A stretch of 64,000 bases of DNA from Bacteroidota bacterium (GCA_014584605.1 JACTMO010000042.1:1-64000), one strand, 5' to 3'. Shown: positions 2,200 to 46,325, counted from the stretch's first letter. Notes: generated by a model from the letters alone, not told the origin. A program made the numbers and translations.

Positions 2200-2227
2200 G
2201 GGCTCGAGGTGTGCAGGGTGGACGAGG

Positions 2228-3010: not shown

Positions 3011-3043
3011 GTTCGGAATTGCCGATGGTCTGTACCGGCGTTC

Positions 3044-3051
3044 CAAAAGTA
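3044..3051 (-). promoter_or_regulatory. Bacteroidota -7 promoter box TACTTTTG
   Basis: Minus-strand TACTTTTG matches the TAnnTTTG consensus. It lies 33 bp before the ATG at 3010 and between the converging end of the methyltransferase-like gene and the T9SS cargo gene. Confidence 0.6.
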
Positions 3052-3073
3052 GGGCATATGACCGGCCTGGACC

Positions 3074-3510
3074 CTACCAGAGCCCAGGTAACAGACGAGC
3101 CCGCCCGTGCATTCGACGGATGCGCTCGGGATAGCGCTCGTTGAGGGCCCTTTCCTCCAACCGCACCTTGGCCACGATCACCGGAAGCAGGAGGCCGGCG
3201 CAGAGGGTGTGCCCCCCGAGGGGCGGGGTGGAGCCCAGTGCGGCGGCGGCCATGAGCACGGCCAGGTACATGGGATGGCGCACCAGGCGGTACGGACCAC
3301 GCAGCACGAGCGCACCCCCGGTCCTGGGCTCCGGGAAGACGCTGAAGGTGCGCCGGCCCATGACCAGTACGGCATGGATCACCAGGACCAGGGAGGCCAC
3401 CAGCAACGCCATCCGCCAGGGACCCAGCACGGCCCAGGGGGTCAGGTACGCCAGCACGGCCAGCAGGGCGAACTGCGCCACCACCAGGGCGACCGAGCGC
3501 GAGGGGTGCC

Positions 3511-12145: not shown

Positions 12146-14245
12146 CTACTCCCGGCCCCAGATGAAGGTCACCGTTCCGCGCTTGTCCATCTTGCGACCC
12201 CGCCCGTCCTCGAACGCGCAGTAGTAGCCGTACACCCCCTGCGGTACGTAGCTGCCGCCCACCTTTCCGTCCCAGCCCTGGGCCGGGTCGCTGCTGGACC
12301 AGATGTTCTGCCCCCAGCGGTTGTAGATGATGAGCTGGTAGCTGCTGAACCCCGTGTAGGCCGTCACCGGCCGGAACTCGCGGTTGGCTTCGATGGCGCT
12401 GCCGGCGATGAAGGCATTGGGCAGCCAGAAGCGGGGTTCCTGCACGGCACAGGCCACATTGCTGCGGCTGCTGGCCTGCACACCACTGGGATCCCCCACC
12501 TCGTAGGCCTCCACGTAGTAGCAGAAGCCGCCATCGGTGCCGATCAGGTCCTGCACCGGATCGCTGTGGGTCCATTGCCCGGCCGGCAGCGTGGCCACCG
12601 GTTCCCACGGCCCGCCGGAGATGCTGCGGAACACGGTGTAGGAGCCCACCGCTCCGGCCCAGTCGCCGTATCCGTTCCACGTCAGGTGGCTGATGCCCTC
12701 CAGGTCCGCCTCGGCCCGCAGATGGATGGTGGCCGCCGTGTTCGAGGTCACTGCGAAGCTGCCGCAGCTGTCCTCCACCTGCACGCGATACGCATAGCTG
12801 CGGCGGTCGGCCTCCACTTCGTGGTCGTCGAACACCAGGAGGCCTCCGCTCACCGCGTTGCCCGGGCGCACGGCGATGACCTCGAAGGGTTCGCCGCTGG
12901 CGCTGCGCTCCAGCAGATAGCGCCGGGCCACGGCCGATGCGTCCACCGTGTCCGTGACCTGGATGTGGTCATCGGCCAGCACCGTGGCCGTGCGGATGTA
13001 GTTGGACTGGGGCACCGGTGGGTAGTCCGTGGGGCTGACCACCTTGTTGCTCAACGACCGGTCCGAGCCGTTGGCCCCGACCGCCTTCACCACATGCTGA
13101 TAGGTGGTGAAGGGAAGCACGTTCTCGTGCAGGGCCGAGCCTGCCGAGGGGTTGTGGATGCCCAGCAGGAACCACGAGCCACCGGCGACCTGGGCGTACA
13201 CCTCGTAGTGGGCCACCGGCCATCCGCCGTAAGGCGTCCAGTTCACGGTGAGCGTGGCGGCGCACTCGTCGTACACCGTGGAGGCATGGATGCTGGTGTG
13301 AGGGTCCAGCGTGGCGCTCGTGTTGGGGCTTGGCGGATTGCCCGACCAGCACGTATCGAAGGCCGCCACCGTGAAGGACTCCGGCACTGTGGCCGCATCG
13401 CTCAACAGGTACTGGTAGAAGGTGTTGCCCTGTCCCCACACGGTATCGATGATCGTGTTGCCCATGCCGTCGATGAGCACCACGATGTACCCGTCGGTGT
13501 CGCCTTCCGGGCTGGCGCCCCAGTCGATGGTGGCCTGGCCCGTGGCCGTGTCCACCGATACCGCCGTGACCACCGGCGAGGTGGGCGGCGTGTCGTCGCG
13601 GAAGATGTCGCCATCCCTGCTGCTGAACGAGGTGCACAGGGTGCCGTTGGACTGGCTGACGCGGAAGGTGAGCGAGTCCTCGCAGATGCTGATCACATGC
13701 TCGTAATGGGTGGTGGGGAGGGTCGTGGAACCCACCAGCTGCCAGCTGCCCACGGGGTGTTCCATCCAGATGTTGTACACCGTGTCCGCCGTGGCCAGGG
13801 CCGGCTGGTGTTGCGGGTTCCAATCGAGTACGGCACTGCCCAGGGGACTGCTCTGGGTGACGTCGAGGAAAAGGGTGGCCAAGGTGTCGCTGGGGGCCGA
13901 AGCGTTCGGCGGTGGAGCGGTGGACACGGCCACCACATAGTAGTACTGTGGGGCCAGCTGCGCCGAGGCGCCGAAATGGGTCGTGCTGGTGGTGCCATAC
14001 ACCGGGATCGCCGGCGGCACCAGGGCATAGGGTCCGCCGGGGGCCGAGGCGTGGTACACCTCGTACTGCATGAAAATCCCGTTGGGGTCGGGCGGGGCCA
14101 GCCAGTTGAGGGTGACGTCGCCGGAGACGTTCACCGAGGCGCAGCGCAAGGCGGGTGCGTCGAGCACCTGGGCACGTGCGGGGGCCAGGGTGGCTGCCAG
14201 GAGCAGTGCCAGGCCGCAGGCTCGGTCCGGGATCCGCATGGGCAT
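12146..14245 (-). CDS. large secreted protein with gliding-motility-type (T9SS type B) C-terminal domain
   Basis: A 699-aa exported protein. The start is ATG 14245 (or ATG 14239), giving the signal peptide [26 protein letters not shown]. The body consists of about five fibronectin-type-III-like modules ([99 protein letters not shown]), each ending with paired aromatic strands. The last 90 residues ([18 protein letters not shown] to [15 protein letters not shown]), with YNRWGQNIW and W-DGK, are a clear type B sorting domain. It is likely a surface adhesin or matrix protein. It starts 5 bp after the nitronate monooxygenase-like gene, so the two form one transcript. Confidence 0.88.
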
Positions 14246-14250
14246 GTGTT

Positions 14251-15261
14251 TCACTCGGAGAGACGTTGGCCGGGGCCGGGTTGTTGCCACGGCGCCACCA
14301 TGGAACGCCCGTCGACGCCGATCCTTGCGGCCGCGGCATGGAACTCCTCCACCAGCTCCTGCACGATCCGGGCCGCCGGCAGCACCTCCCGGATGGCCGC
14401 GCTCACCTGGCCGATCTCCAGCTCGCCCTGGTCCAGGTCGCCCTCGAACATGCCGCGCTTGGCCCGCGCCCTGCCGAGCACCTGCCGGAGCTCCTCGACG
14501 CCCGCCCCGCGGGCGTACGCGGCCTGCACTTCCTGGAAGAAGGCGTTCTTCAGGAGCCGCACCGGGGCCAGTTCCTTGAGGGTGAGCATGGTGCCGCCTT
14601 CCTCGGCGCGGGTCACGGCCTGCTTGAAGGCCGGATGCGCGCTGGACTCCTCGCTGCACACAAAGCGGCTGCCCACCTGCACGCCATCGGCCCCCAGCAC
14701 CATGCAGGCCAGCATGGCCCGGCCGTCGGCGATGCCTCCGGCGGCGATCACCGGCACCTGCACCGCATCGCGCACCATCGGCAGCAGCACCAGGGTGGTG
14801 GTCTCCTCGCGGCCGTTGTGCCCGCCGGCCTCGAAGCCTTCGGCCACCACGGCGTCCACCCCGGCATCCTGGGCCTTGCGGGCGAACTTCACGCTGCTGA
14901 CCACGTGCACCACCGTGCGGCCTGCGGCCTTCAGCCGTGGGGTCAGCGCCGCAGGGTTGCCGGCGGAGGTGAAGACCACGGGCACCTCCTCCTCCAGCAC
15001 CACCTCCAGATGCTTGTCCAGGTCCGCGTACAGCAGCGGCACATTGACGCCGAAGGGCCTGTCGGTGGCCGCCTTGCATTTGCGCACCTGTTCGCGCAGC
15101 ACCTCGGGGTACATGGACCCGGCCCCGATGAGGCCCAGGCCACCGGCGTTGCTCACGGCCGCCGCCAGGCGCCAGCCCGAACACCAGATCATGCCCGCCT
15201 GCACCAGCGGGTAGCGGATGCCGAAAAGGCTGCAAAGGGGGCTGGAACCTGCGGCGGCCAA
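14251..15261 (-). CDS. nitronate monooxygenase-like FMN-dependent TIM-barrel oxidoreductase
   Basis: A 336-aa enzyme if started at TTG 15261, the only reasonable start between the -7 box (15282-15289) and the conserved N-terminus CSLFGIRYPLVQAGM. Family motifs are AAAVSNAGGLGLIGAG, the FMN-binding segment DAVVAEGFEAGGHNGREETTTLVLLPMV, and PVIAAGGIADGRAMLACMVLGADGVQVGSRFVCSEES near 200-245. Members oxidise nitronates or act as NAD(P)H:FMN oxidoreductases in fatty-acid-related reactions, and the substrate cannot be told from the sequence. The pairing with a T9SS surface protein has no obvious functional meaning. The TTG start is an inference. Confidence 0.88.
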   Translation of the reverse strand: MAAAGSSPLCSLFGIRYPLVQAGMIWCSGWRLAAAVSNAGGLGLIGAGSMYPEVLREQVRKCKAATDRPFGVNVPLLYADLDKHLEVVLEEEVPVVFTSAGNPAALTPRLKAAGRTVVHVVSSVKFARKAQDAGVDAVVAEGFEAGGHNGREETTTLVLLPMVRDAVQVPVIAAGGIADGRAMLACMVLGADGVQVGSRFVCSEESSAHPAFKQAVTRAEEGGTMLTLKELAPVRLLKNAFFQEVQAAYARGAGVEELRQVLGRARAKRGMFEGDLDQGELEIGQVSAAIREVLPAARIVQELVEEFHAAAARIGVDGRSMVAPWQQPGPGQRLSE

Positions 15262-19346: not shown

Positions 19347-20339
19347 TCAGCGCCGAAGGATGCGTCGCACGAGCCACAGCAGCACGAGCATGAGGCCCGC
19401 CCCCCACCAGAAGGCCCGGTGGCGCACGGTGGCCTTGATCAAGTACGGCAGCAGGCGCCAGTTGAAGCCCCCGGTTCCGCCCCGCCGGGCCCGCCACCAG
19501 GCCGCATCGTAGACCTGTGGGGGCTCCATCCGCCCACCGGTGAGCGAGAGGGCGCTCCACCGCACGGTGTCCGGGTACACATCGGCGATCAGCAGGGCGT
19601 CGCGCGGTTCGTTGCGGATGGCGCACTGGATGAAGGTGATGTTCGGCGCATGGGGCTGGAAGAAGATGCTGCTCGGCGCACTTCCGCCCAGGCTGCCGCT
19701 GACCCAGTACACCCGGGTGTGCCGCGCGATCCGCTCGAGCACGGGCCGCACCTCCTTCTGGAAACCGGTGCCGAAGGCGGAGCGCGTGTTGTCCTTGAAC
19801 AGGTCGCTGTACGCGGGATCCTCCTCGGCCCAGATGGGGCGGTGCGAGACGATGAAGAGGGTCTTCACCCCTTCGGCGGCGGCCTCCACGCGGGCCAGCT
19901 GCGCGGCGTCCAGCCGCCCGTCCTGCCGCTCGGTGTCCAGGATGACGAACGCCCATGGGCCGTGCCTGCCCTCGGCCAGCACCGTTCCCCCGGCGTCCCG
20001 CCCGGCCAGGTCGTGGTTGCCCGGGGCGTTGAACAGGGGCATCCGCAGCTTGTGGAAGAGGGCGCGCCCGTAGCGGGGCAGGTCCGCCACCGGGTCCATG
20101 AACAGGTCGCCGGTGCTGAGGAGAAGGTGCGCGCCCAGGCGGTTGAGGGTGTCGATGCTGGCCAGGAGCGTGGCCGCCGGGTAGCCGCTGCGGTTGCTGC
20201 TCTCCCCGTGGAAATGACCGCCGATGAGGATGCGGTGATGACCCGCGCTGTCCGCCGGCGGCACCTCCAGCCCGTTGAAGGGCGAACGCTGCGCGTGTGC
20301 CGTCGCCGTGAGCAGCAGCACGCCCAGGAAGAGGAGCAT
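19347..20339 (-). CDS. membrane-anchored metallophosphoesterase-like protein with altered metal ligands
   Basis: A 330-aa protein started at ATG 20339, giving signal peptide MLLFLGVLLLTATAHAQ. An in-frame ATG at 20423 overlaps the CotH stop by ATGA and would add 28 Arg-rich residues, so the start is uncertain. The calcineurin-like core is recognisable: LLLSTGDLFMD, NAPGNHDL and FIVSHRPIW match motifs II, III and IV. The first motif reads GGHFHGES where DxH is expected, and the last reads SGSLGG where GHxH is expected, so a normal two-metal site looks incomplete. A C-terminal helix (WWGAGLMLVLLWLVRRILRR) should tether it to the inner membrane facing the periplasm. It is the last gene of the CotH/polymerase operon; the function may be structural or altered hydrolase activity. 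Confidence 0.7.
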   Translation of the reverse strand: MLLFLGVLLLTATAHAQRSPFNGLEVPPADSAGHHRILIGGHFHGESSNRSGYPAATLLASIDTLNRLGAHLLLSTGDLFMDPVADLPRYGRALFHKLRMPLFNAPGNHDLAGRDAGGTVLAEGRHGPWAFVILDTERQDGRLDAAQLARVEAAAEGVKTLFIVSHRPIWAEEDPAYSDLFKDNTRSAFGTGFQKEVRPVLERIARHTRVYWVSGSLGGSAPSSIFFQPHAPNITFIQCAIRNEPRDALLIADVYPDTVRWSALSLTGGRMEPPQVYDAAWWRARRGGTGGFNWRLLPYLIKATVRHRAFWWGAGLMLVLLWLVRRILRR

Positions 20340-20419
20340 GGACCGGTGACCCTCGCGGTCCCAGGCCCGCCTCCGCAAAAGGCGATGGGGGCGCTCGCTC
20401 CGGGTCGCTCCCGCCTGGC

Positions 20420-22909
20420 TCATGTGCCCAGAGCGGCCTTGGTGCTGCCCACCGCCCGGCCGTTGAGGCGGATGCTGCTGCCCTGGCCGGTCTTGAACGC
20501 GGCGTCGTCGGGCACGGTCACCTCCTGCAGCTCGATGCTCACCGGACCGTACCGCACTTCATCCTTGCCGGCATGCGCCGCACGGCCCGCGTCGATCCGG
20601 CCGGCGACCACCGCCACCGTGGAGCCCTCGCGCGCCTCCACACCCGTTCCGCAACGGGCGATGGTGAGGTCCTTGAGCTGCATCTGCGCCCGGTCGGTGG
20701 CCTTCACCCCCATCCCCGTCGCGCCTTCGATCCGCACCCCGGTGAAGTGCCCACCGCCCCCGTGGAAGCTCGCCGCATCGTCGGCGGCCCCGAGGAACCG
20801 CAGCTCCGAGCCCTGGACCGCGGCATGCACGGACTGCAACTGGTCGAGACCGCCGACGAAGGTGCTCTGCCGCAGCTGGAGCTCCCCCTCGGACACCGCG
20901 AGCAGGGCCGCACCCGTTCCGCTGAACACGGCGTGGCCGATGGTGGCAGGCGAGCGGTGGAGGATCAGGTCGGCCTGCACACGCGGGTCCGCCTGGCGCC
21001 TGGTGAGCCCCTCGAACCGCACGTGGTCCAGCTCGGAGCGCCCACCGGCCTCCAGCACCTGCACCCCCCTGCTGCTGCTGTCCGGACTGGCCAGCACGAT
21101 GGGCAGGTCGGCGGTGCCGGTCCAGCGCAGGGGCGACCGGCTCACGATGGCGGCACCGCCGGTGAGGTCGAGGCGCAGGGGCGGCAGCGCCACCACGGTG
21201 TAGCCTGCGGGCAGCACCATGCGCTCGGTGATGGACCATCGGCCCGGTTTGAAGGTGATGGTGCGCTGCGCCTCATCGCGCACCAGGAAGGGGAAACGCT
21301 CCACGTTGGGCGCGGCCAGTGCATCGAGGTCCAGGGCGCTGAGGGCGAACAGGGCGAAGGGCGACACCGGGGCCGGCTTGCGCCGGGTGCTTCCCAGGAA
21401 GCCCGCGCGCACCGCAGCATCGGCCAGGGCGCTGTCGTTCACGGCACCCACGACGAAGCGCAGGATCCGCGGTCGGCCCACGCCACCGCGGGGCCGGGGC
21501 GGCAGCAGGGCCGAACCCACCGGGGCGATGCGACGACCGTCGGCCAGCAGGAGGCTGTCCACCTGCACGGGCAGCGCCTCCAACGGTACGGCCACCAGCT
21601 CCAGCGTGTCGCCGTTGCGGCGGCCCAGGTGGAAATGGGCGTGCTTGGGCGGGTCGAGGAGCGCACGGATGGCGCGCTGATTGGCGCGGTAGATCGAGCG
21701 GTCGAGCTCCTTGTAGGGGAACTCGCGGTAAAGGGTGGCGCTGGCGGTGTCCAGGGGGCCCTTCAGCGCGGCGAAGGCGCTGTCCAGGAAGGCGGGTTCG
21801 GCGTAGCGCTCCAGGTGATGCACGTAGGCCGCCATGATCAGCGTGTCGCTGAACAACTGGGTGTGCAGCTCGTCCTGTTCGCGCATCCGCAGGCGGTATC
21901 GATAGGCACCGGCCAGCTCCCGGATGCGGAAGGCGCTGAAGCTCTCGTAGCTCACCGGTTCCAGGCGCTTGAGCACGGGATCGAAGTGGAACTTGACGTC
22001 GCTCCAGTCCATGCTGTGGTGGCCGCCCACCAGGTCGAGCAGGGCCAGCCGGCGGGCGGTGCGGTCGGCGTCGAACACGGCCGAGGCGGGCCGCTCGCCC
22101 CGGCGGAAGGCGTCCACCAGGGCCAGGGCCTCTTCGAAGAGGCGTCGCCCCTGGGGATCGGCGGCCAGGTCGCTGGTGCCGTAGGCGTCGAGCTCGGCGG
22201 CCTGGTAGGCGGCGTAGGCCTCGTCCAGGGGCAGGCCCTGCATGCCGTTGAGCCGGTGCTGCCAGAACAGGCCGGGGTCGAAGCGCAGCAGCGGACCGGC
22301 CGCCCGTCCGTTGTTCTCGGCGAGCTCCTTTTCGAAATGCTCCTCGTAGGCATACACGCCGAGGTCCTCCCCGTTGAAGAGCACGCGACAGAAGCCGTAG
22401 CGCAAGGCGATCAGGTCTTCGCCCGCCATCAAGCGGTGGTAGAACCAGTCGCAGAGGTAGTTGCGCGTGCCGGGGTGCTGCAGGCTGAAGCGCTTCATGC
22501 CCAGGAAACCGCCGTCCTTGCGGGCCAGCACGCGGAAGCTCCACTTCTCGCCCTGCACGTGGTCGCTGAGCTTGCCCTTGATGCGCACCCGCCCCTTGAA
22601 GGTGCGGCCGTCCACGGTGAAGCGTGCCTCCACCGGATCGTTGCCCTCGGGCATGATGACGCCCCGTTCGCGCGCCAGCCGGACCACATCGGTCAGCCGG
22701 GCCATCTCCGCCTCGTCCACCTCGATGGCGATCACGGGCGGCTCGACGGCGAAGCTGGCCGGGTAGTTCACGGCCCACTGCCGCAGGAAGACCGCAAGGC
22801 CCGGATGGCCCCGGTGGACCAGTGCCCGATGCGCACCCCACGCCGCTGCGGCCAGCAGGGCGACCATCACGGCCGCCACGGCCAGCCAACGTTTCAACCG
22901 CTTGCTCAT
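20420..22909 (-). CDS. CotH-like protein with C-terminal right-handed beta-helix
   Basis: An 829-aa protein starting at ATG 22909. An N-terminal membrane helix (RWLAVAAVMVALLAAAAWGA) is followed by a CotH-related domain at about 60-430: FKGRVRIKGKLSDH, WSFRV..GMKRFSLQHPGTRNYLCDWFYHRLM, RVLFNGEDLGVYAYEEHFEKEL and MDWSDVKFHFDPVLKRLEPVSYESFS. Where true CotH kinases have a D-x-D motif before F-G, this one has YESFS, so kinase activity is doubtful. Residues about 560-800 show beta-helix spacing (RSELDHVRFEG, ATIGHAVFSGTG, GELQLRQSTFVGG, GHFTGVRIEGA, QMQLKDLTIARCG). The gene overlaps both neighbours by ATGA. A role in cell-surface polymer handling is inferred from the polymerase-like neighbour. 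Confidence 0.75.
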   Translation of the reverse strand: MSKRLKRWLAVAAVMVALLAAAAWGAHRALVHRGHPGLAVFLRQWAVNYPASFAVEPPVIAIEVDEAEMARLTDVVRLARERGVIMPEGNDPVEARFTVDGRTFKGRVRIKGKLSDHVQGEKWSFRVLARKDGGFLGMKRFSLQHPGTRNYLCDWFYHRLMAGEDLIALRYGFCRVLFNGEDLGVYAYEEHFEKELAENNGRAAGPLLRFDPGLFWQHRLNGMQGLPLDEAYAAYQAAELDAYGTSDLAADPQGRRLFEEALALVDAFRRGERPASAVFDADRTARRLALLDLVGGHHSMDWSDVKFHFDPVLKRLEPVSYESFSAFRIRELAGAYRYRLRMREQDELHTQLFSDTLIMAAYVHHLERYAEPAFLDSAFAALKGPLDTASATLYREFPYKELDRSIYRANQRAIRALLDPPKHAHFHLGRRNGDTLELVAVPLEALPVQVDSLLLADGRRIAPVGSALLPPRPRGGVGRPRILRFVVGAVNDSALADAAVRAGFLGSTRRKPAPVSPFALFALSALDLDALAAPNVERFPFLVRDEAQRTITFKPGRWSITERMVLPAGYTVVALPPLRLDLTGGAAIVSRSPLRWTGTADLPIVLASPDSSSRGVQVLEAGGRSELDHVRFEGLTRRQADPRVQADLILHRSPATIGHAVFSGTGAALLAVSEGELQLRQSTFVGGLDQLQSVHAAVQGSELRFLGAADDAASFHGGGGHFTGVRIEGATGMGVKATDRAQMQLKDLTIARCGTGVEAREGSTVAVVAGRIDAGRAAHAGKDEVRYGPVSIELQEVTVPDDAAFKTGQGSSIRLNGRAVGSTKAALGT

Positions 22910-24300
22910 GAAGGGCGCAAAGTAAGCCCCTGGTCGCCGGACCCCGGGTGCAGCACGCGCAGCTCGTCGTCCGGCAGCGCGGTCTCCGCATCGAGCGCGG
23001 CCCGCTCGCGCTCTTCGTGCTCCACGATCTCGGGCTCGGTCACCACGGTCATGATGGCCACCAGGATGATCGTGAAGGGGTTGAGCGAACCGGTGAGCCA
23101 CGATTCGTAAAGCACGCTGAACATCACGGCGAACATGGCGGCGAAGGCCATGGGCACGCGCTTGCTGGCCTTGAAGAAGATCAGGAAGTAGCTGCGGAAA
23201 TAGATGAGGATGCCCACGATGCCCACGTTGAACCACATGGTGAGGTAGCTGTTGTGCACCCCACCGTGGTGACCCAGGGTGCGGAGGTAGGCGTAGTTGT
23301 GGCGCATGATGTACTCGTCGTTGCCGAAGCCGCCACCGAGCATGAAGTAGTCCTGGATCTTGCCCCAGGCGAAGCGCCAGGCGATGTAGCGGCCGGACCC
23401 GTCGTCGAGGGTCTCCACACGGAAGTACTCCTGCAGACCCAGGCTGATGACGATGGCCGAAAGGTTGGCGCTCACCATTTCCACCACGCCCAGGAAGGCG
23501 ACGAAGCCGATGAAGCCGAGGAAGGGCGACAAGCGGAAGAAGCGGCTGAACACGAGGAACATGCCCGTGGCCACCAGGGAGGTGCGCGACCCGCACAGCA
23601 CCAGGAAGAACACGATCACCGCATAGTTGATCATCCGCTGCCGGAAGGGGAAGAGATCCTTCTTGAGGTGATTGAGGATGGTGTACAGCGTGAAGACCAG
23701 GAAGGTGAAGATGCCCAGGCCGTTGGGGTTGCCGAACAGGCCGCGGAAGCGCCCGGCGATGAAGACCGGCACCACCCGGATGAACTTCATCAGCCACATC
23801 ACCACCAGCAGCGCCACCAGGAACCGCACCAGGTCGCGGAAGAAATCCCAGCCCCGCTGGCGGTAGTTGAGCAGTATGTAATTGGGCACCACCAGGTACA
23901 GCAGCGCGTAGCTCAGGGTCTTCTGGATGCCGGTGATGGGATCGTTGCCGAACACCAGGGGGAAGAAGGCGTAGGCGAAGAAGGGCAGGAAGACCTTGAA
24001 CACGCCGGCCAGTGGCGCGAAGCGATGCTGCTCGGCCAGCAGGATGAGCGAGAGCGCGATGATGTATGCGTACTTGGCCGTCTTGATCTTCCGCATGCTG
24101 AAGACATCGGGCGTCATGTCCGACAGGACCAGGATGAGGATGAAGCCGAAGAGGATGTCGCCGAAGGACTCGCGCCGGTAGAACAGGAACACGGTGAGCG
24201 GGAGCAGGGCGTAGATGGCCGGACCGGCGTACACGGTGGCCAGCACCCAGATCAGGGCGAGCAGGATGAACTGCAGTTCGTTGCGGAGGAATCCCAGCAT
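22906..24300 (-). CDS. O-antigen ligase/polymerase-like (Wzy/WaaL) membrane protein
   Basis: A 464-aa protein with about 11 hydrophobic helices. A large hydrophilic loop (about 290-350: LGLQEYFRVETLDDGSGRYIAWRFAWGKIQDYFMLGGGFGNDEYIMRHNYAYLRT..HHGGVHNSYLTMWF) has the R-x-x-x-W...G-x-G...H-N-x-(Y/F) pattern of the Wzy_C superfamily, including the catalytic-type loop histidine. The family polymerises or ligates undecaprenyl-linked glycans at the periplasmic face of the inner membrane. It is sandwiched between two CotH-type genes with ATGA overlap downstream and 3 bp spacing upstream, an unusual context. Confidence 0.82.
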   Translation of the reverse strand: MLGFLRNELQFILLALIWVLATVYAGPAIYALLPLTVFLFYRRESFGDILFGFILILVLSDMTPDVFSMRKIKTAKYAYIIALSLILLAEQHRFAPLAGVFKVFLPFFAYAFFPLVFGNDPITGIQKTLSYALLYLVVPNYILLNYRQRGWDFFRDLVRFLVALLVVMWLMKFIRVVPVFIAGRFRGLFGNPNGLGIFTFLVFTLYTILNHLKKDLFPFRQRMINYAVIVFFLVLCGSRTSLVATGMFLVFSRFFRLSPFLGFIGFVAFLGVVEMVSANLSAIVISLGLQEYFRVETLDDGSGRYIAWRFAWGKIQDYFMLGGGFGNDEYIMRHNYAYLRTLGHHGGVHNSYLTMWFNVGIVGILIYFRSYFLIFFKASKRVPMAFAAMFAVMFSVLYESWLTGSLNPFTIILVAIMTVVTEPEIVEHEERERAALDAETALPDDELRVLHPGSGDQGLTLRPS

Positions 24301-24303
24301 GGT

Positions 24304-25935
24304 TCAGCGGGCCGGGAAATGACGGTCCAGATGGGCGCGCACGGCGGCCGGACGGGCGTTCGCGAAGGCACGGAGCTCCTCCACCCGGTCGGCCCATTCG
24401 GCCACGGAGGCGGGCCGTCTCCAGCGCCCCACGTGCAGCGCCATCTCCGGCCCCAGGGTGGCGGCCTCCGCATCGATGACCGCACGCATGGCGGCCTCGG
24501 ACAAGGCCCCTTCCAACAACCCGATCACGATGGACCGGAAGCGTGCGCGGAGCGCAGGTGCACGAAGCACGGCCTCGTACAGCTGGGCCACCGGCCCCGC
24601 GTGGCGTTCCACATGGCTGAAGGGATCCGCCGTGGCGGGAGCGGCATAGCCCATACCCATGTCGCTGTCGCCCATGATGAAGCGCCAGCGCCCGTCGTGC
24701 GGGCGGCCCAGGGTGTCCCGCGTGCCGGTCCATCGCCAGTACTTGACGTTCTGGTCCGGCCAGTCGAGGTTGCCCAGGATCATCTGCGCGGCCATGTACG
24801 TCAGGAAGCCCTCCACATCGAGCCGCCGCTCCAGGCTGTCCACATAGTGCGGGGCCTGAGGGTCCCAGCGTTCGGCCATGGTGATGAGGCGTTCAAAGCG
24901 CTTGACCTCGGACCGGTCGCCGTCGTGCAGCAGCAGGCGGTCCTCCAGGATGCTGTAGCTCTTGGGGCCGCCGCCATGCCGGCGGGCAAGTTCATCGGCG
25001 TCGATACGCTCGCGCACGTGGTGGAGCCCCCAGTAGGCGCCGTTGATGTACAGCACCACGGCGCTGCCCGCCATGGTCTGAAAAGGCAGCGCCGCACAGA
25101 GCCGGTGCTGCACCACATCGCGCATGAAGCTGTCGGCCTGGTCGTTGCCTCCGGCACGCAGGACCACGGTGCGGTGGCCCGTTCCGCGATCCTCCCCGGT
25201 CCAGGGCACTGCGGAAGGGGGCAGCTTCATCCGCAGGGCATGCTGCGGGAAGCCCCGGGTGTTGTTGCCGTTGATGCGGAGCCCCACCGGCCCCGACCAG
25301 CGCGGGGTGCCGCCCACGGCGAAAAGCTCGGCGTGGGCCTGGCGCTCCCAGTCCTTTCCGCGGAACTGGAAGTTGCCCGGGTACTTCCACCAGCGGTGGT
25401 CGCCCGGGAACCGTTGCACGGCCTCCTCATCGGTGCGGAAGATCCCATGCCCCATCGCGTAGATGCCCGTGTCCGGGTCGAAGAACGCGCCCGGGTCCGC
25501 TGTAAGCGCGAGCACCGGCAGGGGATGTGGATGCCGCAGCAGGGTCCGCGTGGTCACCGGTCCGCAGATCCGGTCCGCACAGGCGCTGGCCCGCACCACC
25601 GCCGCCGTGGGCAGCCCCGGCAACGGAGGTCGCCATTGAACGGAGGTGGGGATCCGCATCAGGGCATGGGCGTTCCGATCATCGGTCCCGGGCCGCAACA
25701 CACCGGTCTCCACCGGATCGTCCGCAGCAGGCACGCCACCATCGCGGGTCACATGAACGGTCGCCCCGTCCACGGTCCCGATGCGAAAGGCCCCGCCTTC
25801 AACCTCCACGGGCACCGCCGGGGCGGTCGGGGAATGCAAGGTGGGAAGAGCCCGGGGCAGGGCCGCACGCCAACCGGCGACCACGGCGACCAACGCGGCC
25901 CAAAGGAGGAAGGGACGGAGGGCCGTGCCGTTCAT
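24304..25935 (-). CDS. CotH family kinase, secreted
   Basis: A 543-aa protein with an N-terminal signal or anchor (MNGTALRPFLLWAALVAVVAGW). CotH motifs are intact: PVGLRINGNNTRGFPQHALRMKL; VVLYINGAYWGLHHVRERID; the GNLDWPDQNVKYWR segment; and WRFIMGDSDMGMG, where the two aspartates match the metal-binding D-x-D of CotH kinases. CotH of Bacillus and CotH proteins of Bacteroidota phosphorylate secreted substrates. The substrate here is unknown and might be the adjacent CotH/beta-helix or surface proteins. It starts inside the stop of the 135-aa membrane gene (ATGA) and is followed after 3 bp by the polymerase-like gene. Confidence 0.85.
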   Translation of the reverse strand: MNGTALRPFLLWAALVAVVAGWRAALPRALPTLHSPTAPAVPVEVEGGAFRIGTVDGATVHVTRDGGVPAADDPVETGVLRPGTDDRNAHALMRIPTSVQWRPPLPGLPTAAVVRASACADRICGPVTTRTLLRHPHPLPVLALTADPGAFFDPDTGIYAMGHGIFRTDEEAVQRFPGDHRWWKYPGNFQFRGKDWERQAHAELFAVGGTPRWSGPVGLRINGNNTRGFPQHALRMKLPPSAVPWTGEDRGTGHRTVVLRAGGNDQADSFMRDVVQHRLCAALPFQTMAGSAVVLYINGAYWGLHHVRERIDADELARRHGGGPKSYSILEDRLLLHDGDRSEVKRFERLITMAERWDPQAPHYVDSLERRLDVEGFLTYMAAQMILGNLDWPDQNVKYWRWTGTRDTLGRPHDGRWRFIMGDSDMGMGYAAPATADPFSHVERHAGPVAQLYEAVLRAPALRARFRSIVIGLLEGALSEAAMRAVIDAEAATLGPEMALHVGRWRRPASVAEWADRVEELRAFANARPAAVRAHLDRHFPAR

Positions 25936-26339
25936 CGGGCCGACGGGGCATCACGCAACGCCCACCGTGCGATGAGCGCCACGGGGACCAGGCCCACCAG
26001 CACCGGCAGGGCCGCGCCCGTGCCGCATCCACCGCCCACCACCACGGCCAGGGCCTTCAACAGCCGCTGGCGCGGATCCGCTCCCGCCTCGGCGCGCACC
26101 AACAGCGCCAGCGCCACCAACGCGATGCTGAAGGGGACGGAACCTTTCACCAGCGCCACGCCCAAAGCGGCCACCGCCGCCCAGAGCGCCAGCTGCCTGG
26201 CCTCCCGGGTGCCGGCCCCGGCCAGGCGTGCCGCCCCGAAGGCCATGGCAGTGGCCAGCAGCACGGCCAGCACAAGGCCCGGCAGGTCCTGTGGCGTGAA
26301 AAAACCCAGTTGGTCGGCGAGCAGGCCCATCAGATCCAT
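25932..26339 (-). CDS. small integral membrane protein of unknown function
   Basis: A 135-aa hydrophobic protein, first gene of the CotH/polymerase operon (ATG 26339, 16 bp after a -7 box at 26356-26363). Four helices can be read: LPGLVLAVLLATAMAFGAARLA, RQLALWAAVAALGVALVKG, VPFSIALVALALLVRA and the glycine-rich KALAVVVGGGCGTGAALPVLVGLVPVALIARWAL. It resembles in position the small membrane proteins that accompany CotH genes in other bacteria, but I do not recognise a named family. Translational coupling to the CotH kinase (ATGA) suggests they work together, for example as a membrane anchor or transporter subunit. Confidence 0.65.
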   Translation of the reverse strand: MDLMGLLADQLGFFTPQDLPGLVLAVLLATAMAFGAARLAGAGTREARQLALWAAVAALGVALVKGSVPFSIALVALALLVRAEAGADPRQRLLKALAVVVGGGCGTGAALPVLVGLVPVALIARWALRDAPSAR

Positions 26340-26355
26340 GGCAGTAGCGTTGCGG

Positions 26356-26399: not shown

Positions 26400-26407
26400 T
26401 ACTTTTG
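26400..26407 (+). promoter_or_regulatory. -7 promoter box TACTTTTG of the tail-fibre/lectin-like operon
   Basis: TACTTTTG at 26400-26407 is a full consensus match and ends 5 bases before the ATG at 26413, consistent with a leaderless or near-leaderless transcript. Confidence 0.65.
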
Positions 26408-26412
26408 CCCGT

Positions 26413-27300
26413 ATGCGCACCGCGGTGACCGTGTTCCTGCTCGTCGCCCTGTGGTCGGGGGAGCTGGCTGCGCAGGCGGTGCTGCGCTCGGGCTCCACCT
26501 TGCAGGTGCTCCCGGGCACCACCCTGCACGTCCCGGACGGGCTCAGCCTTGGCGTGGAACCCGGTGCATCGCTGGTCAACGACGGGACCGTGGTGCTGGC
26601 CCCCACGGCCACCGTGATCGAGGCGCCTGGGTCGCCCATCACGGGCCTGGGCACCGAACGGATCGACCTGCTGGTAGCGGCACCGCCCGTGGGCCTGGAG
26701 CCCGGCGGCCTCGGCTTCCGCATCGATGCGGCCATCGCTCCGGACAGCCTGACGGTGCTGCGCGGACACACCGTGCTCACGGACACCAGCGGGGCCTCGG
26801 GGATCGCCCGTTGGTACCGCGTCACCGCCGGCAACAACAGTGGTCTGGCCGCCGCCATCGGGTTGCGCTACGACCTGACCGAGCTGCAGGGCATCGCGGA
26901 AGCGGTCCTGATGATCTACACGGCCCATCCGGGCGACAGCATCTGGCTGGGCATCCCCAGCGCGGTGAACATGCCCCAGACCACCGTATCCGCCATCGCG
27001 CTGGACAGCCTGGGCACCTTCACCCTGTTCGACGGGAGCCTGGGCACGGCGGCGCATGCCACGGCGCCCCATGCCGGGCTGCACGCCGGGCCCATACCGG
27101 CCACGGACCACTTGGAGCTGAACGACAGCGGCCCGGGGTTCAGCGGCTTGGTGGTGATGGATGCCGCCGGCCGGGTGCTGCTTCGCCAACGCCTGCCGCA
27201 TCGCACCAAGCGCCACCGCATCCTGCTGTCCGGTCTGGCCTCCGGCCTTCACCTGTTGCGCACCGACGACGGCCGCAGCCTGCGATTCATGCATCGATGA
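26413..27300 (+). CDS. secreted beta-rich protein with T9SS-type C-terminus
   Basis: A 295-aa protein with signal peptide MRTAVTVFLLVALWSGELAAQ. The first 60 mature residues form short beta-repeats (STLQVLPGTTLHVPDGLSLGVEPGASLVNDGTVVL), typical of Bacteroidota surface proteins with stacked turns. A second beta domain (about 120-215) follows. The end, GPIPATDHLEL to GLHLLRTDDGRSLRFMHR, fits a T9SS type A sorting domain, although the N-terminal NP motif is degenerate. It is the first of four genes joined by ATGA overlaps; the other three are paralogues of one another. The role is unknown; a shared surface assembly with those proteins is plausible. Confidence 0.7.
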   Translation: MRTAVTVFLLVALWSGELAAQAVLRSGSTLQVLPGTTLHVPDGLSLGVEPGASLVNDGTVVLAPTATVIEAPGSPITGLGTERIDLLVAAPPVGLEPGGLGFRIDAAIAPDSLTVLRGHTVLTDTSGASGIARWYRVTAGNNSGLAAAIGLRYDLTELQGIAEAVLMIYTAHPGDSIWLGIPSAVNMPQTTVSAIALDSLGTFTLFDGSLGTAAHATAPHAGLHAGPIPATDHLELNDSGPGFSGLVVMDAAGRVLLRQRLPHRTKRHRILLSGLASGLHLLRTDDGRSLRFMHR

Positions 27301-28082
27301 CCCGAGCCCTCGCCCTCGCCCTGTCGCTGCTCCCGGTCTCGCTGACCCGGGGCCAGTGGGACCTGCCCGTGCGGCTGGAGCTCGCGGGTGACAGCGTCGT
27401 TGACCGCCACATCACCGGCCTGGCCGCACCGCTGGAAGCCACCGATGGGGCGGCTGCCGTGGTCCTGCGCGAACAGCAGGCGACCTGGGTCCACGCACAC
27501 GGGGTGAACGCGCTGACGGGCGACTGGCCGCAGGTGCCCCTTCCCCTGGCGGGCGACCATCCGCTGATCACCGTGGTGCCCGACAGCACCAATACCGGGC
27601 CGGTGACCCTGTCGCTGCCGGGGACCGGTGCGGTTCCCGTCGTGAAATACGCGACCGCCCCCCTGGACAGCGCCGACCTCACCGCCGGCCTTCCCGTGGA
27701 CCTGGCGTTCGACGGCACGGCCTGGCAGGTCATCTCACCACTTCCGCGTCCGTGCCCGCCCGGCATGTTCCCGGCCTCACGGGATGTCTGCATCGAACGG
27801 CAGCCCACGGATTCGGCCAACTTCTACGCGGCCGCCAACGGGTGCGCGAACCGGCAACGGCGCATGTGCACGTTCGGTGAGTGGATCGCTGCGTGCACCA
27901 TGCCGAACGGCATCCTCCTCAACAGCATCGTGGACTACGAATGGGTGGACCACGCCGCCAACAGCGGCAATGACGCCAAGTCCATCGGGCTCAACAACAA
28001 CACCTTCCTGCCCGATTGCCTATCCGGCGGGACCCGCGTGCCCCTCACCGTGCTCTCCTATCGATGCTGCTCCGACCGATGA
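27297..28082 (+). CDS. secreted tail-fibre-like/lectin-like protein, paralogue 1
   Basis: A 261-aa protein with signal peptide MTRALALALSLLPVSLTRGQ; its ATG overlaps the preceding stop (ATGA). Residues about 25-155 are a beta-rich domain comparable to repeated domains of phage tail fibres, though this is the most diverged of the three copies (PVTLSLPGTGAVPVV, LTAGLPVDLAFDGTAWQVI). Residues about 160-261 form a Cys-rich module: CPPGMF, ..FYAAANGCANRQRRMCTFGEWIAACT, YEWVDHAAN and a terminal YRCC. The pattern of EW and paired cysteines resembles the short C-type-lectin/FGE-like fold used for binding. No enzyme motif is present. There is no sorting domain, so it may be periplasmic, released, or held by partner proteins. 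Confidence 0.7.
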   Translation: MTRALALALSLLPVSLTRGQWDLPVRLELAGDSVVDRHITGLAAPLEATDGAAAVVLREQQATWVHAHGVNALTGDWPQVPLPLAGDHPLITVVPDSTNTGPVTLSLPGTGAVPVVKYATAPLDSADLTAGLPVDLAFDGTAWQVISPLPRPCPPGMFPASRDVCIERQPTDSANFYAAANGCANRQRRMCTFGEWIAACTMPNGILLNSIVDYEWVDHAANSGNDAKSIGLNNNTFLPDCLSGGTRVPLTVLSYRCCSDR

Positions 28083-28846
28083 GGACCCGATGGGCCATGG
28101 CCGCACTGCTGGTGGCCTCCGCGCTGCCGGCCCAGGTGGACCTTTCCGCGCCGCTTCGGTTCACCGCGACGGACAGCAACCTTCGCCAGGTGGACGGCCT
28201 GGCCGCGCCCGACGCGGAAACGGACCTGATCGACCTGGCCACGGCCCGAACGGGCACGGTGCATTGGGCCGCAGCGGGCGGCACGGCCAACGCCATCACC
28301 CTCGCGGCACGCCCGCCGGTGACGGCATACCGCGAGGGGCTGCGGCTCCGGTTCCTTCCCACGGTCTCCGCCGGAGCAGCACCCACGATCAATGTAGACG
28401 GCCTCGGCCCGGTGCCCGTGCTGGGTCCGGAGCTCACTCCACCATCGGCCGGAAGCCTGGTGCCCGGACGCCTCGCCGAAGTGGTGTGGAGCGACAGCGT
28501 GTTCCGGCTGGTGCCCCGCCCCGTGGACGGATGCCCGCAGGGCTTCCTTCAGGTGCATGACGGCCTCTGCCTGCAGCAGGACCAGGGCACCAACGTCACG
28601 GTATTCACCGCCATCCGCCAATGTGCCGATCGGGGCGCACGCCTGTGCACCTGGGACGAATACCTCTACGCCTGTACGTTGCTCAACGGCCAGCTCACCG
28701 GTCTGTTCGACGACTGGGAGTGGATCGACGATACCAGCGACCACACCCACACCGGCAACCAGGCCGGGCGCTACTTCTGTGCCCAGCAACGGTCGCAACC
28801 CACCAACGTGAACGGCCGCGTGCGCTGCTGCCACCGCATCCGATGA
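28079..28846 (+). CDS. secreted tail-fibre-like/lectin-like protein, paralogue 2
   Basis: A 255-aa protein, ATG 28079 overlapping the previous stop by ATGA. An N-terminal signal peptide (MRTRWAMAALLVASALPAQ) is present. The first domain closely follows phage tail-fibre wording: AAGGTANAITLAARPPVTAYREGLRLRF (about 55-83), then APTINVDGLGPVPVLG and a closing LVPGRLAEVVWSDSVFRLV. The C-terminal module shares with its neighbours CPQGF, GLCL, CADRGARLCTWDEYLYACT, DWEWIDDT, the FC and a terminal RCC motif, giving eight conserved cysteines likely in disulphides. The best guess is a ligand-binding surface or secreted protein built by fusing a phage-fibre domain to a lectin-like domain. Confidence 0.72.
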   Translation: MRTRWAMAALLVASALPAQVDLSAPLRFTATDSNLRQVDGLAAPDAETDLIDLATARTGTVHWAAAGGTANAITLAARPPVTAYREGLRLRFLPTVSAGAAPTINVDGLGPVPVLGPELTPPSAGSLVPGRLAEVVWSDSVFRLVPRPVDGCPQGFLQVHDGLCLQQDQGTNVTVFTAIRQCADRGARLCTWDEYLYACTLLNGQLTGLFDDWEWIDDTSDHTHTGNQAGRYFCAQQRSQPTNVNGRVRCCHRIR

Positions 28847-29634
28847 ACCCCTTCGCACGCCCCCTGCTCGCCACCGTGCTCCTGGCCTCGCCGGCCCTGG
28901 CCCAGGTCCAGGTGGACCGTTCCGTGCGGCTCACCGCACCTGTGGACAGCGCACGCCGCGTGACGGGCCTTGCGGACGCCACCAGCGAGGCGGAAGCCTT
29001 GAACCTCCGGACCGCTGCGATGGGCCGGTTCCGGACCGCCACGGCAGGCGGAACGCCCGATGCCTGGACCATCGCCCTGGCGCCCGCCCTGACGGACACA
29101 CTCCCCGCCGGTTCCGAACTGCTGCTGCGGATCCCGGCCTCGAACACCACGGCGGTCACCCTCACGATCGATGGGCTCGGGCCCTTCGCCGTGGAGGAGG
29201 CCCCGGGCGACCCGCTGGACAGCGCCGATGTCCCCGCCGGCCTGATGGCCCGGCTGCTCTTCGACGGCACGGCCTTCCAGCTCATGAACGGACGCCCCTC
29301 CCGCACCCGCCCCTGCCCCTCCGGCTTCGTTGCCGTGACGGACCAGTTCTGCATGGAGCCCGGTCAGCGCGACACGCTCGACTTCCGCGAGGCCGCCATG
29401 GCATGCGGCGCCCTGGGCGCCCGGCTGTGCACCTGGGGCGAGTTCTACACCGCGTGCACACGCGCCGCACAGCTCGGCCTGAACGACATGACGGGGGACT
29501 GGGAATGGACCAACAACTCGGCCAATGCGGACATGGGCGTGCGGGTGGTCGGCTATTCCTCCTGCACCGTCGCGGCCACCTCCGGGGCGTTGGACCCTCC
29601 GGCGCGGAACTTCCGCTGCTGCTTCAGGCACTGA
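28843..29634 (+). CDS. secreted tail-fibre-like/lectin-like protein, paralogue 3
   Basis: A 263-aa protein, again joined to its predecessor by ATGA, with signal peptide MNPFARPLLATVLLASPALAQ. The tail-fibre-like domain reads ATAGGTPDAWTIALAPALTDTLPAGSELLLRI, then TLTIDGLGPFAVEE and VPAGLMARLLFDGTAFQLM. The Cys-rich module has CPSGF, FCMEP, CGALGARLCTWGEFYTACT, DWEWTNNSAN, a GYSSC and FRCCF. The three paralogues are clearly related in order of motifs but differ at most exposed positions, as expected for diversified binding modules. The MBOAT gene starts 36 bp downstream and may be transcribed with this operon. Confidence 0.72.
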   Translation: MNPFARPLLATVLLASPALAQVQVDRSVRLTAPVDSARRVTGLADATSEAEALNLRTAAMGRFRTATAGGTPDAWTIALAPALTDTLPAGSELLLRIPASNTTAVTLTIDGLGPFAVEEAPGDPLDSADVPAGLMARLLFDGTAFQLMNGRPSRTRPCPSGFVAVTDQFCMEPGQRDTLDFREAAMACGALGARLCTWGEFYTACTRAAQLGLNDMTGDWEWTNNSANADMGVRVVGYSSCTVAATSGALDPPARNFRCCFRH

Positions 29635-29670: not shown

Positions 29671-31131
29671 ATGCTGTTCAACAGCTTCACCTTCGCGCTC
29701 TTCCTGCCGGTGGTCTTCGCCCTGTACTGGGGCGTATGCCGGTCGGTGACCGCCCGCAACCTGCTGCTGATCGCCGCCGGATGCGTGTTCTACGGCTGGT
29801 GGGACTGGCGCTTCCTGTTGCTGCTCGCCGCCACCAGCATGACGGACTACGGTGTGTCCATCGCGATGGACCGGGTGGAGAGCCCGCGCAAGCGCAAGGC
29901 CTGGCTGTGGGTGAGCCTGCTGGGCAACCTCGGAACGCTCGGGACCTTCAAGTACCACGATTTCTTCGCCTCCTCCCTGGCCGACGCCCTGGCCCAGGTC
30001 GGCATCGCCACCCAGCCCGTGCTCCTGCACGTGGTGCTCCCCGTGGGCATCAGCTTCTACACGTTCCAGGCGCTGAGCTACACCATCGACGTGTACCGCC
30101 GCCGCATCGCACCGGTGCGCGACCTGCCCACCTACCTGGCCTTCATCACTTTCTTCCCGCAGCTGTGCGCCGGCCCCATCGAGCGCGCGAGCCACATGCT
30201 GCCCCAGTTCGCCCGGCCACGGCGTTTCGAGCCGGACCAGGCCACCGACGGGTTGCGCCAGATGCTGTGGGGCCTGTTCAAGAAGGTGGTGGTGGCCGAC
30301 AACTGCGCCACGCTGGTGGACCGCATCTTCGCCGGCACGGACCATCTGCCGGGCCCCGTGCTCGCCCTGGGCGCCGTGCTCTTCGCCCTGCAGATCTATG
30401 GCGACTTCAGCGGCTACAGCGACATCGCCATCGGCTGCGCACGCCTCTTCGGCTTCGAGCTGATGCGCAACTTCGCCTTCCCCTACTTCAGCCGCGACAT
30501 CGCCGAGTTCTGGCGGCGCTGGCACATCAGCCTCAGCAGCTGGTTCCGCGACTACGTGTACATCCCCCTGGGCGGAAGCCGTGGCGGCACATGGATGAGC
30601 GTGCGCAACACCTTCGCCATCTTCCTGCTCAGCGGCTTCTGGCACGGCGCCAACTGGACCTTCCTGGTGTGGGGTTTCCTGAACGCCCTTTACTTCCTGC
30701 CGTTGCTGTTGGGCGGGCGCCACCGGAGCAACCTCGGCACCGTGGCCCCGGGCCGGGCGCTGCCCTCGGCGGGTGATGCGCTGCGCATGGTCACCACCTT
30801 CGCGCTCACGTGCCTGGCATGGGTCTTCTTCCGCGCAGCGGACCTGGACCACGCCTTCCGCCACCTGGCCCGCATGACCGACGGCTGGCTGCGTCCCGGG
30901 GCCTGGCAGCGCAGCGCGGCCTTCCTGGTCGACCACCTCCTGCTGGCGCCCGCCATGGCCTGCGCCGTCGGGCTCTTCGCCGTGGAGTGGGTGCAACGCG
31001 AACAGGCCCATGGCCTGCAACGGCTCCCGGTGCAGCGCCCCCTGCGCTGGGCCATCTACCTGGCCGTGCTGGCCGCCGTGGTCTTCGCCGGCGATCATGG
31101 CGAACAGCAGTTCATCTACTTCCAGTTCTGA
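29671..31131 (+). CDS. MBOAT O-acyltransferase (AlgI/DltB-like), copy 1
   Basis: A 486-aa polytopic membrane protein. The start MLFNSFTFALFLPVVFALYW is typical of Bacteroidota AlgI-like proteins. Signature segments are LPVGISFYTFQALSYTIDVYR, FFPQLCAGPIERASHMLPQF, LFKKVVVADNCA, QIYGDFSGYSDIAIG, FWRRWHISLSSWFRDYVYIPLGG and the catalytic histidine segment LLSGFWHGANWTFLVWG. It ends in QQFIYFQF like copy 2. These enzymes pass acyl groups across the membrane to periplasmic glycans with a partner esterase or transferase, here the adjacent SGNH-like gene 3 bp downstream. Confidence 0.93.
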   Translation: MLFNSFTFALFLPVVFALYWGVCRSVTARNLLLIAAGCVFYGWWDWRFLLLLAATSMTDYGVSIAMDRVESPRKRKAWLWVSLLGNLGTLGTFKYHDFFASSLADALAQVGIATQPVLLHVVLPVGISFYTFQALSYTIDVYRRRIAPVRDLPTYLAFITFFPQLCAGPIERASHMLPQFARPRRFEPDQATDGLRQMLWGLFKKVVVADNCATLVDRIFAGTDHLPGPVLALGAVLFALQIYGDFSGYSDIAIGCARLFGFELMRNFAFPYFSRDIAEFWRRWHISLSSWFRDYVYIPLGGSRGGTWMSVRNTFAIFLLSGFWHGANWTFLVWGFLNALYFLPLLLGGRHRSNLGTVAPGRALPSAGDALRMVTTFALTCLAWVFFRAADLDHAFRHLARMTDGWLRPGAWQRSAAFLVDHLLLAPAMACAVGLFAVEWVQREQAHGLQRLPVQRPLRWAIYLAVLAAVVFAGDHGEQQFIYFQF

Positions 31132-44877: not shown

Positions 44878-46325
44878 CAGAACTGGAAGTAGATGAACAT
44901 GGCCGCCCCGTACTGGCCCAGCACCAGGCTGGCCGCCAGCAGGGTGCCGAAGTAGGCGTAGCGCAACGGCCGCCGCGCGATCCGCCGCTCGCCCTTGGCC
45001 ACGGCGTCCGCCCAGGGGTCCAGGCCGAGGAAGGCGACGGACAGCAGCACGGTGGTGAGCACCATGCCGGCGCCCAGCTCACGCAAAAGGCCGTTGAAGC
45101 CCTTCCAGCATCCTTCGGGGCTCACCCACGAACCCAGCACCGCCCACGCATCGGCGAAGGTGGTGGCGCGGAAGAAGACCCAGCCCACCACCACCAGCAG
45201 CACCGTGACCAGTACGGCCAGCGCATGGTCGAGCCCGGGTCGGCGGTGCAGGCCCAGGAGGTGGCGCAACTGTTCACGCGGGCCCGCCAGCACAAGGGCG
45301 CCCACCAGGTAGAGGCCGTGGAGCCCGCCCCAGGCCACGTAGGTCCAGCTGGCCCCATGCCACAGCCCGCTCAGCAGGAACACCAGCAGCAGGTTCATGT
45401 ACCAGCGCCACTTCACCACCCTGTTGCCGCCCAGGGGGATGTACACGTAGTCGCGGAACCAGCTGCTGAGGCTGATGTGCCAGCGGCTCCAGAACTCGCT
45501 GATGGAGGCCGAGCGGTAGGGCGTGCGGAAGTTGACCATCAGGTTGAATCCCATCACCCGCGCCGCGCCCAGGGCAATGTCCGTGTAGCCGCTGAAGTCG
45601 CAGTAGATCTGCAGGGCGAACAGGCTCGTGGCCAGCAGGGTGGCGACGCCGCCGAAGCCGGACGGGTCGGCGTACACGTGGTCCACCACCACGGCGCAGC
45701 GGTCGGCGATGACGAGCTTCTTGAAGAAGCCCCACAACATCTGCTGCAGCCCGTGCACCACGCGCGCATGGTCCCACCGATGCACATGGTCCAGCTGGTT
45801 GAGCAGGTTGCCCGGCCGTTCGATGGGGCCGGCCACCAGCTGGGGATAGAACATCACGTAGAGCGCGAAGATGCCCGGACGGCGTTCGGCCCGCTGGTGG
45901 CCCCGGTACACCTCGATGGTGTAGCTGAGGCTCTGGAAGGTGTGGAAGCTCAGCCCGATGGGGAGCAGGATGCCGAGGTCGGTGGGCGTGTACGCGATGC
46001 CTGCGGCCTGCATGAGGGCCGCGATGGTCCCGTCCAGAAAGGCGTAGTACTTGAAGAAGGCCAGCACGCCGAGGTTGGCCACGATGCTGGCCACCAGCCA
46101 GGCCTTGCGCCGCTGCCCGCTGCTGCCCTCGATCAGCAGGCCCGCCGCATAGTCCACCGCGATGGTGAAGGCCAGGATGAGGATGTACGCCGGCACGAAG
46201 GTCATGTAGAACCAGCAGCTGGCGGCCAGCAACAGGGCCCAGCGGAACCGATGCGGCAGCAGGAAATAGCCGACCGTCACCAGCGGGAAGAACACGAAGC
46301 AGAACGCGAAGGAGTTGAAGAGCAT
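44877..46325 (-). CDS. MBOAT O-acyltransferase (AlgI/DltB-like), copy 2
   Basis: A 482-aa polytopic protein whose sequence parallels copy 1 throughout (MLFNSFAFCFVFFPLV; LPIGLSFHTFQSLSYTIEVYR; FYPQLVAGPIERPGNLL; FFKKLVIADRCAVVVD; QIYCDFSGYTDIALG; WSRWHISLSSWFRDYVYIPLGG; LLSGLWHGASWTYVAWGG; ending AMFIYFQF). The catalytic histidine in LWHGAS is present. With the following SGNH gene it forms a second O-acylation pair, likely acting on a different position or chain. It lies 12 bp after a glycosyltransferase gene. Confidence 0.93.
   Translation of the reverse strand: MLFNSFAFCFVFFPLVTVGYFLLPHRFRWALLLAASCWFYMTFVPAYILILAFTIAVDYAAGLLIEGSSGQRRKAWLVASIVANLGVLAFFKYYAFLDGTIAALMQAAGIAYTPTDLGILLPIGLSFHTFQSLSYTIEVYRGHQRAERRPGIFALYVMFYPQLVAGPIERPGNLLNQLDHVHRWDHARVVHGLQQMLWGFFKKLVIADRCAVVVDHVYADPSGFGGVATLLATSLFALQIYCDFSGYTDIALGAARVMGFNLMVNFRTPYRSASISEFWSRWHISLSSWFRDYVYIPLGGNRVVKWRWYMNLLLVFLLSGLWHGASWTYVAWGGLHGLYLVGALVLAGPREQLRHLLGLHRRPGLDHALAVLVTVLLVVVGWVFFRATTFADAWAVLGSWVSPEGCWKGFNGLLRELGAGMVLTTVLLSVAFLGLDPWADAVAKGERRIARRPLRYAYFGTLLAASLVLGQYGAAMFIYFQF

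Follow-up and report, generated by a model that had tools for sequence, protein, structure and literature searches.

Why should a bacterium keep three related secreted proteins, each joining a domain that resembles phage tail fibres to a cysteine-rich head, side by side in one operon? The question is raised by a window of 64,000 nucleotides (the whole stretch of DNA that was analysed) from a Bacteroidota genome (G000; 3.7 Mb, assembly 99.9% complete) belonging to a genus whose members are uncultured. The sequence-only reading of the window described four genes linked by ATGA overlaps, and all three junctions are indeed ATGA, with the operon running from 26413 to 29634 on the plus strand. We call the four genes D, A, B and C, in their order:

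26400..26407, plus strand: TACTTTTG, a promoter-like motif near the start of D that fits the Bacteroidota -7 consensus
26413..27300, plus strand: gene D (gene 1), secreted, with a short beta-repeat N terminus, a beta-rich middle and a C-terminal T9SS type A sorting domain (about residues 221-295)
27297..28082, plus strand: gene A (gene 2), with a signal peptide, a neck-like segment, a tail-fibre beta domain and a C-type-lectin/FGE-like head ending in YRCCSDR
28079..28846, plus strand: gene B (gene 3), of the same architecture as A, with a conserved loop seen in B only (WEWIDDTSDHTH) and R238
28843..29634, plus strand: gene C (gene 4), of the same architecture as A; predicted structure (pLDDT 91) with residues 51-154 gp47-like and 157-263 like the tip of Bd2740

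The -7 promoter consensus of Bacteroidota is TAnnTTTG. Motifs of the TACTTTTG type stand 13-16 bases ahead of the start of D in seven sister loci, and the motif is likely a single promoter for D-A-B-C. The paralogy of A, B and C, proposed from their common architecture, is borne out by BLASTP between the window's chains (B/C, E 6e-32; A/C, 1e-31; A/B, 2e-21) and by eight invariant cysteines, at a pairwise identity of 26-34% over about 260 residues each. Gene D was considered as a fourth paralogue and rejected: its sequence is unrelated, beta-rich and ends in a T9SS C-terminal sorting domain.

Domains and predicted folds of A, B and C

The three proteins begin with a signal-peptide-like stretch followed by Q. 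Behind it lies a 40-residue segment with DRQV-GL wording, weakly similar to the necks of trimeric adhesins (PDB 2yo0, E 0.06), and then come the beta domain and the head. The tail-fibre-like wording noticed at the outset reflects a genuine match. PHROG 4900 (phrog_4900, “tail protein”) matches gene C at E 1.1e-9, gene B at 2e-5 and gene A at 0.003, and sequence profile searches relate the beta domain to gp47 of phage Pa193 (9b45, E 2e-12) and the head to Bd2740 of Bdellovibrio (E 1e-5). The cysteines that are invariant throughout the family all lie in the head, at positions 158, 170, 188, 196, 205, 241, 259 and 260 in the numbering of gene C.

Of the three paralogues, we predicted the structure of C alone with AlphaFold2 (74 sequences; pLDDT 91, pTM 0.66), and the folds of A and B are read from it by homology. 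A Foldseek search with this model placed gp47 (E 6.6e-6) and Bd2740 on top. In VIA-align comparisons, the beta domain (51-154) aligned with gp47 at Z 10.8, and the head (157-263) with Bd2740 at Z 13.5, Legionella Lcl at 12.6, Mtd and TvpA at 11.7 each and FGE at about 11. The C model and these matches uphold the assignment of the cysteine-rich module to the C-type-lectin/FGE fold, which is predicted for gene C and expected by homology for A and B. The Pfam family of FGE itself (PF03781, sulfatase-modifying factor) gave weak matches in 9 of the 74 members, with a best E of 0.00043. In the B-only loop (B residues 213-238), two histidines come after the WEW motif: H222 is invariant, H224 is present in 22 of 25 sequences, and together with R238 they may form a ligand or metal site specific to B.

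The closest described parallel is Bd2740 (PDB 8OKS), a mosaic adhesive trimer (MAT) protein that forms a trimeric predation fibre in Bdellovibrio (PMC10769870). It too is a secreted phage-fibre-like protein, and its C-type-lectin tip belongs to the same subfamily; the head of C superposes on it at 2.1 A over 100 residues, with 23% identity. The differences are in build: Bd2740 is a single-chain trimer of 627 residues, whereas A, B and C have about 260 residues each and form a set of three paralogues accompanied by a T9SS protein; right behind the signal peptide, MATs share a beta-rich domain some 130 residues long, where A, B and C have the 40-residue neck and a gp47-type domain. Their C-terminal C-type-lectin fold is of the kind seen in Bd2740, and A, B and C would work like short MAT-type fibre lectins, which is no claim of membership in the MAT family.

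Other relatives each share one of the two domains. Pa193 gp47 (PDB 9B45), a Pseudomonas phage tail fibre that is trimeric in the phage (PMC11042391), is homologous in the beta domain, with 29% identity across 103 aligned residues, but it is a baseplate fibre, whereas A, B and C lie in a chromosomal polysaccharide locus; in the fetched loci their context is that of polysaccharide genes and not of a phage structural module. The C-terminal domain of Legionella Lcl (PDB 8Q4E) is a trimeric C-type-lectin-like, glycan-binding head of a secreted adhesin (PMC11162425). It resembles the head of C in fold (Z 12.6) and differs in its collagen stalk, its homotrimeric state, its lack of disulphides and an identity of only 10%. 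The head also superposes on Bordetella phage Mtd (PDB 1YU3; 1.6 A over 108 residues) and on TvpA (PDB 2Y3C), which differ in that the window's genome has no reverse transcriptase. Compared with the FGE family, the heads are much shorter, have a cysteine pattern of their own and cap a fibre, and we see no sign of an enzyme role in them, judged without reference to catalytic residues.

A, B and C across the genus

Our survey covered 45 genomes of the genus, and 31 of them carry the family. One complete A-B-C triplet is found in 17 genomes, two separate triplets in one (G007) and a contiguous ABCABC array in five (G004, G023, G025, G038 and G040), so that complete arrays, known from 23 genomes, are all ABC or ABCABC and never change in order. 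Arrays cut by contig ends in 7 further genomes are consistent with the triplet pattern. The sole departure is G036 (72% complete), in which D-A-C and B-C stand 10 kb apart and all three chains are still present. Conservation of the ATGA-linked array among sister genomes, which the sequence-only reading had named as support for its case, is well beyond chance.

In a maximum-likelihood tree of 74 proteins, A, B and C form one clade each, with support of 100/98 or better. The two copies of each chain in double arrays differ by 51-65%, which makes the duplications old. Judging by these sequences, A, B and C are three old, fixed and separate lineages. The retention of whole A-B-C triplets as a set is the main new finding of this analysis, and the fact that the three genes are nearly always together in the same order suggests a single three-part surface fibre.

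Two of these arrays deserve a separate remark. In G036, the two parts lie at 896-3365 and 13433-15145 of one contig (L107, G036:C85), a split that is either a rearrangement or an assembly chimera. The second triplet of G007 (L045, G007:C13) lies about 15 kb from the first and is without D.

The idea, put forward from the sequence, that the set may be a diversified recognition or adhesion system is not supported in its first part, diversification. A search of the whole genome of the window for reverse transcriptase (PF00078, RVT_1) gave no match, conservation of the head at least equals that of the stalk (mean within-chain identity of 0.42-0.49 in the head versus 0.36-0.41 in the beta domain), and the three lineages are old and fixed. 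Rapid diversification of the tips is not supported. Mtd and TvpA are diversified by diversity-generating retroelements (DGRs), and the head fold shared with these known targets is what could make A, B and C appear as DGR targets or other hypervariable proteins of recognition. The lack of RVT_1, heads as conserved as the stalk or more so and a constant array composition leave this idea scarcely credible. A diversity-generating retroelement was rejected, being largely refuted for the window's genome by the missing RVT_1 in a 99.9% complete assembly.

Gene D and the polysaccharide locus

Gene D gives the operon a possible route to the cell surface. The T9SS sorting-domain profile TIGR04183 matches 13 of 17 members of the D family (E up to 0.1; best 4.4e-5), with the window's own copy scoring below the curated cut-off, and residues 221-295 of the D model align with T9SS C-terminal domains (8qb1, Z 10.9; 8gl6, Z 10.0). 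SprA of the T9SS is encoded in the window's genome. Given the sorting domain in the family and in the model, and SprA in the genome, D is probably exported by the T9SS. A fold search with the middle of the D model (about residues 80-210) gave no reliable match. Where D is present, there is one copy of it, directly upstream of A, even ahead of six-gene arrays; G012 and the second G007 triplet do without it, and hence it is not strictly needed. A, B and C gave no profile match to a T9SS C-terminal sorting domain and end with the lectin-like head.

The operon was said to lie next to glycan genes, and it sits in fact inside a polysaccharide locus with a Wzy ligase, glycosyltransferases, epimerases and MBOAT. 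On its left, the window holds:

19347..20423, minus strand: metallophosphatase-like protein, grouped with CotH2 in one accessory module and assigned by sequence reading; no Pfam match
20420..22828 (start approximate), minus strand: second CotH-like protein (CotH2), assigned by sequence reading, to the left of the Wzy ligase
22906..24300, minus strand: Wzy_C/O-antigen ligase (PF04932, E 5.3e-14), part of the locus backbone with or without the operon
24304..25935, minus strand: CotH kinase family protein 1 (CotH1; PF08757, E 2.2e-40), divergent from the operon
25932..26342, minus strand: small membrane protein between CotH1 and D; no Pfam match

The position of the operon is mostly constant among the fetched sister genomes. 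The usual order of their loci is epimerase, phosphatase-like protein, CotH2, Wzy_C ligase, CotH1 and small membrane protein, followed by the divergent D-A-B-C, by MBOAT and SGNH in some genomes, and then by a glycosyltransferase and an epimerase. In the window, a second MBOAT-like gene (44880-46325, minus strand) shares 43% identity with that at 29671-31131.

The CotH genes appear to be inherited together with the operon. A close CotH1 orthologue is present in 29 of the 31 operon genomes (in the other two, the operon contig is broken nearby) and was found in none of the 14 operon-less genomes. Wzy_C, by comparison, occurs in 41 of 45 genomes. Eleven operon-less loci that we inspected keep the epimerase and Wzy_C, and usually the glycosyltransferase and the second epimerase too, with neither CotH gene nor D-A-B-C. 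The absence of D-A-B-C needs about two changes on the Wzy tree, so the correlation with CotH is suggestive only. Since the locus core is found without the operon, the polysaccharide does not require it. One operon-less genome, G043 (L097), branches within the operon carriers in the Wzy tree; it has kept Wzy_C in a locus of changed orientation and is without both CotH genes.

CotH proteins of other bacteria act as kinases of secreted proteins, and by analogy CotH could modify the fibre; our literature search on CotH in Bacteroidota found nothing relevant. The CotH pair and the metallophosphatase-like gene flank Wzy_C, share the operon's presence or absence, and may be a kinase/phosphatase pair whose substrates are surface proteins or the polymer.

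Assembly, ligand and relatives beyond the genus

What, then, could three such proteins do together? Our favoured reading, to which we give an even chance, is that A, B and C are secreted, trimeric, glycan-binding fibre lectins that work with the assistance of D, either as an A:B:C complex or as a fixed set of fibres. It starts from features seen directly: the paralogy, the domain folds of the C model, the A-B-C order, the lineages, the T9SS domain of D and the locus. The neck-like segment and the phage-tail-fibre beta domain would form a three-stranded stalk on which each chain bears a cysteine-rich C-type-lectin/FGE-like head. A trimeric state is expected by analogy, because the homologues Bd2740, gp47 and Lcl are trimers. 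The three chains would most likely assemble together, as an A:B:C heterotrimer or as three fibres acting jointly, and D, as T9SS cargo, would most likely be an anchor that helps to position the complex at the cell surface. The heads would bind glycan, probably the polysaccharide of the surrounding locus or a surface touched by the cell or the polymer. The predicted location is the cell surface or the cell's polysaccharide, and the lack of a sorting domain in A, B and C counts against it, as do, for the reading as a whole, the split array of G036 and the absence of D in G012 and from the second G007 array.

A more specific form of this reading is an obligate A:B:C heterotrimer with three differing heads, displayed through the T9SS partner and possibly modified by CotH. 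We hold it tentatively, a little short of even. Its support is genetic, namely the retention of the set, and against it, fixed order and co-duplication would suit three co-required homotrimers too. Distance correlations among A, B and C fail to tell a heterotrimer from linked homotrimers, and net charge, compared by chain, revealed no clear complementarity. Chain-specific W/Y/F residues in a helix of the head could belong to the core rather than to an interface and are not counted as evidence. In vertebrate C1q, three clustered paralogous genes encode chains that each combine a stalk with a recognition head and form a heterotrimer, with a collagen stalk and TNF-like heads; the likeness to A, B and C is an analogy of logic only, with no homology claimed. 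Our literature search for a heterotrimeric bacterial fibre of the A-B-C kind found nothing relevant. The phage-like chimeric fibres described so far are single-chain trimers. If the heterotrimer is real, it would be a bacterial adhesin with three different heads and a test case for the combination of specificities in one fibre. The finding also ties MAT-like fibres to the T9SS, CotH kinases and a polysaccharide locus in Bacteroidota.

The three genes could instead encode separate homotrimeric adhesins with differing ligands, a small MAT-like repertoire kept since all its members are useful. The described relatives are homotrimeric (MAT fibres, PMC10769870; Lcl, PMC11162425; gp47, PMC11042391), other Bacteroidia have the head in single-chain form, and B is set apart by a conserved HxH loop, as though for a ligand of its own. 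Such a repertoire should at times have 2, 4 or 5 members or an altered order, of which there are 0 cases among the 23 genomes with complete arrays, and the old duplications comprise whole triplets; we regard it as rather unlikely. Compatible with either state of assembly, and a variant on the ligand, is a scaffold for matrix or capsule, in which the fibres tie the cell's own polysaccharide to its surface and do not recognise foreign cells. The fixed place beside the Wzy ligase, glycosyltransferases, epimerases and MBOAT argues for it, and the conservation of the heads, which equals or exceeds that of the stalk, fits a constant ligand, but the locus core is also present in operon-less genomes. 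We consider a scaffold a serious possibility, though improbable on balance. Finally, the phage-tail-fibre likeness of the beta domain might recall genes left behind by a prophage. The N-termini, however, are signal-peptide-like, the partner is a T9SS protein, the chromosomal locus is fixed in some 30 genomes, none of the neighbouring genes that were tested was recognised as a phage gene, and phage matches span only about half of the protein. We rejected a cryptic prophage remnant as very improbable, from the polysaccharide-locus context and the half-length phage matches.

The sequence-only reading knew of no described system of this form. This stands for the fixed A-B-C set, which we did not find described, and fails for its building plan, since adhesins that join phage-fibre-like parts to a C-type-lectin tip have been described (Bd2740, PMC10769870) and, in other Bacteroidia, heads of the A/B/C type are carried by long fibres of one chain. 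We scanned the collection with an alignment of the B chain as the query, a profile of all three chains being too diverse. Outside the genus, searches that scored six candidates per genome found no A-B-C triplet, and one of them, run at a stricter limit, also missed the single-domain relatives; the architecture is seen only in this genus as far as these weak outside searches reach. In the phage collection, matches cover about half of the protein, chiefly the beta domain. In other Bacteroidia the beta domain occurs separately from the head, and the head forms the end of long fibre-like proteins containing NVGIGT-type repeats, or of a short protein (a 214-residue open frame). In L062-L070, the lectin-like head ends NVGIGT-repeat fibres as if replacing the S74 chaperone that is frequent there.
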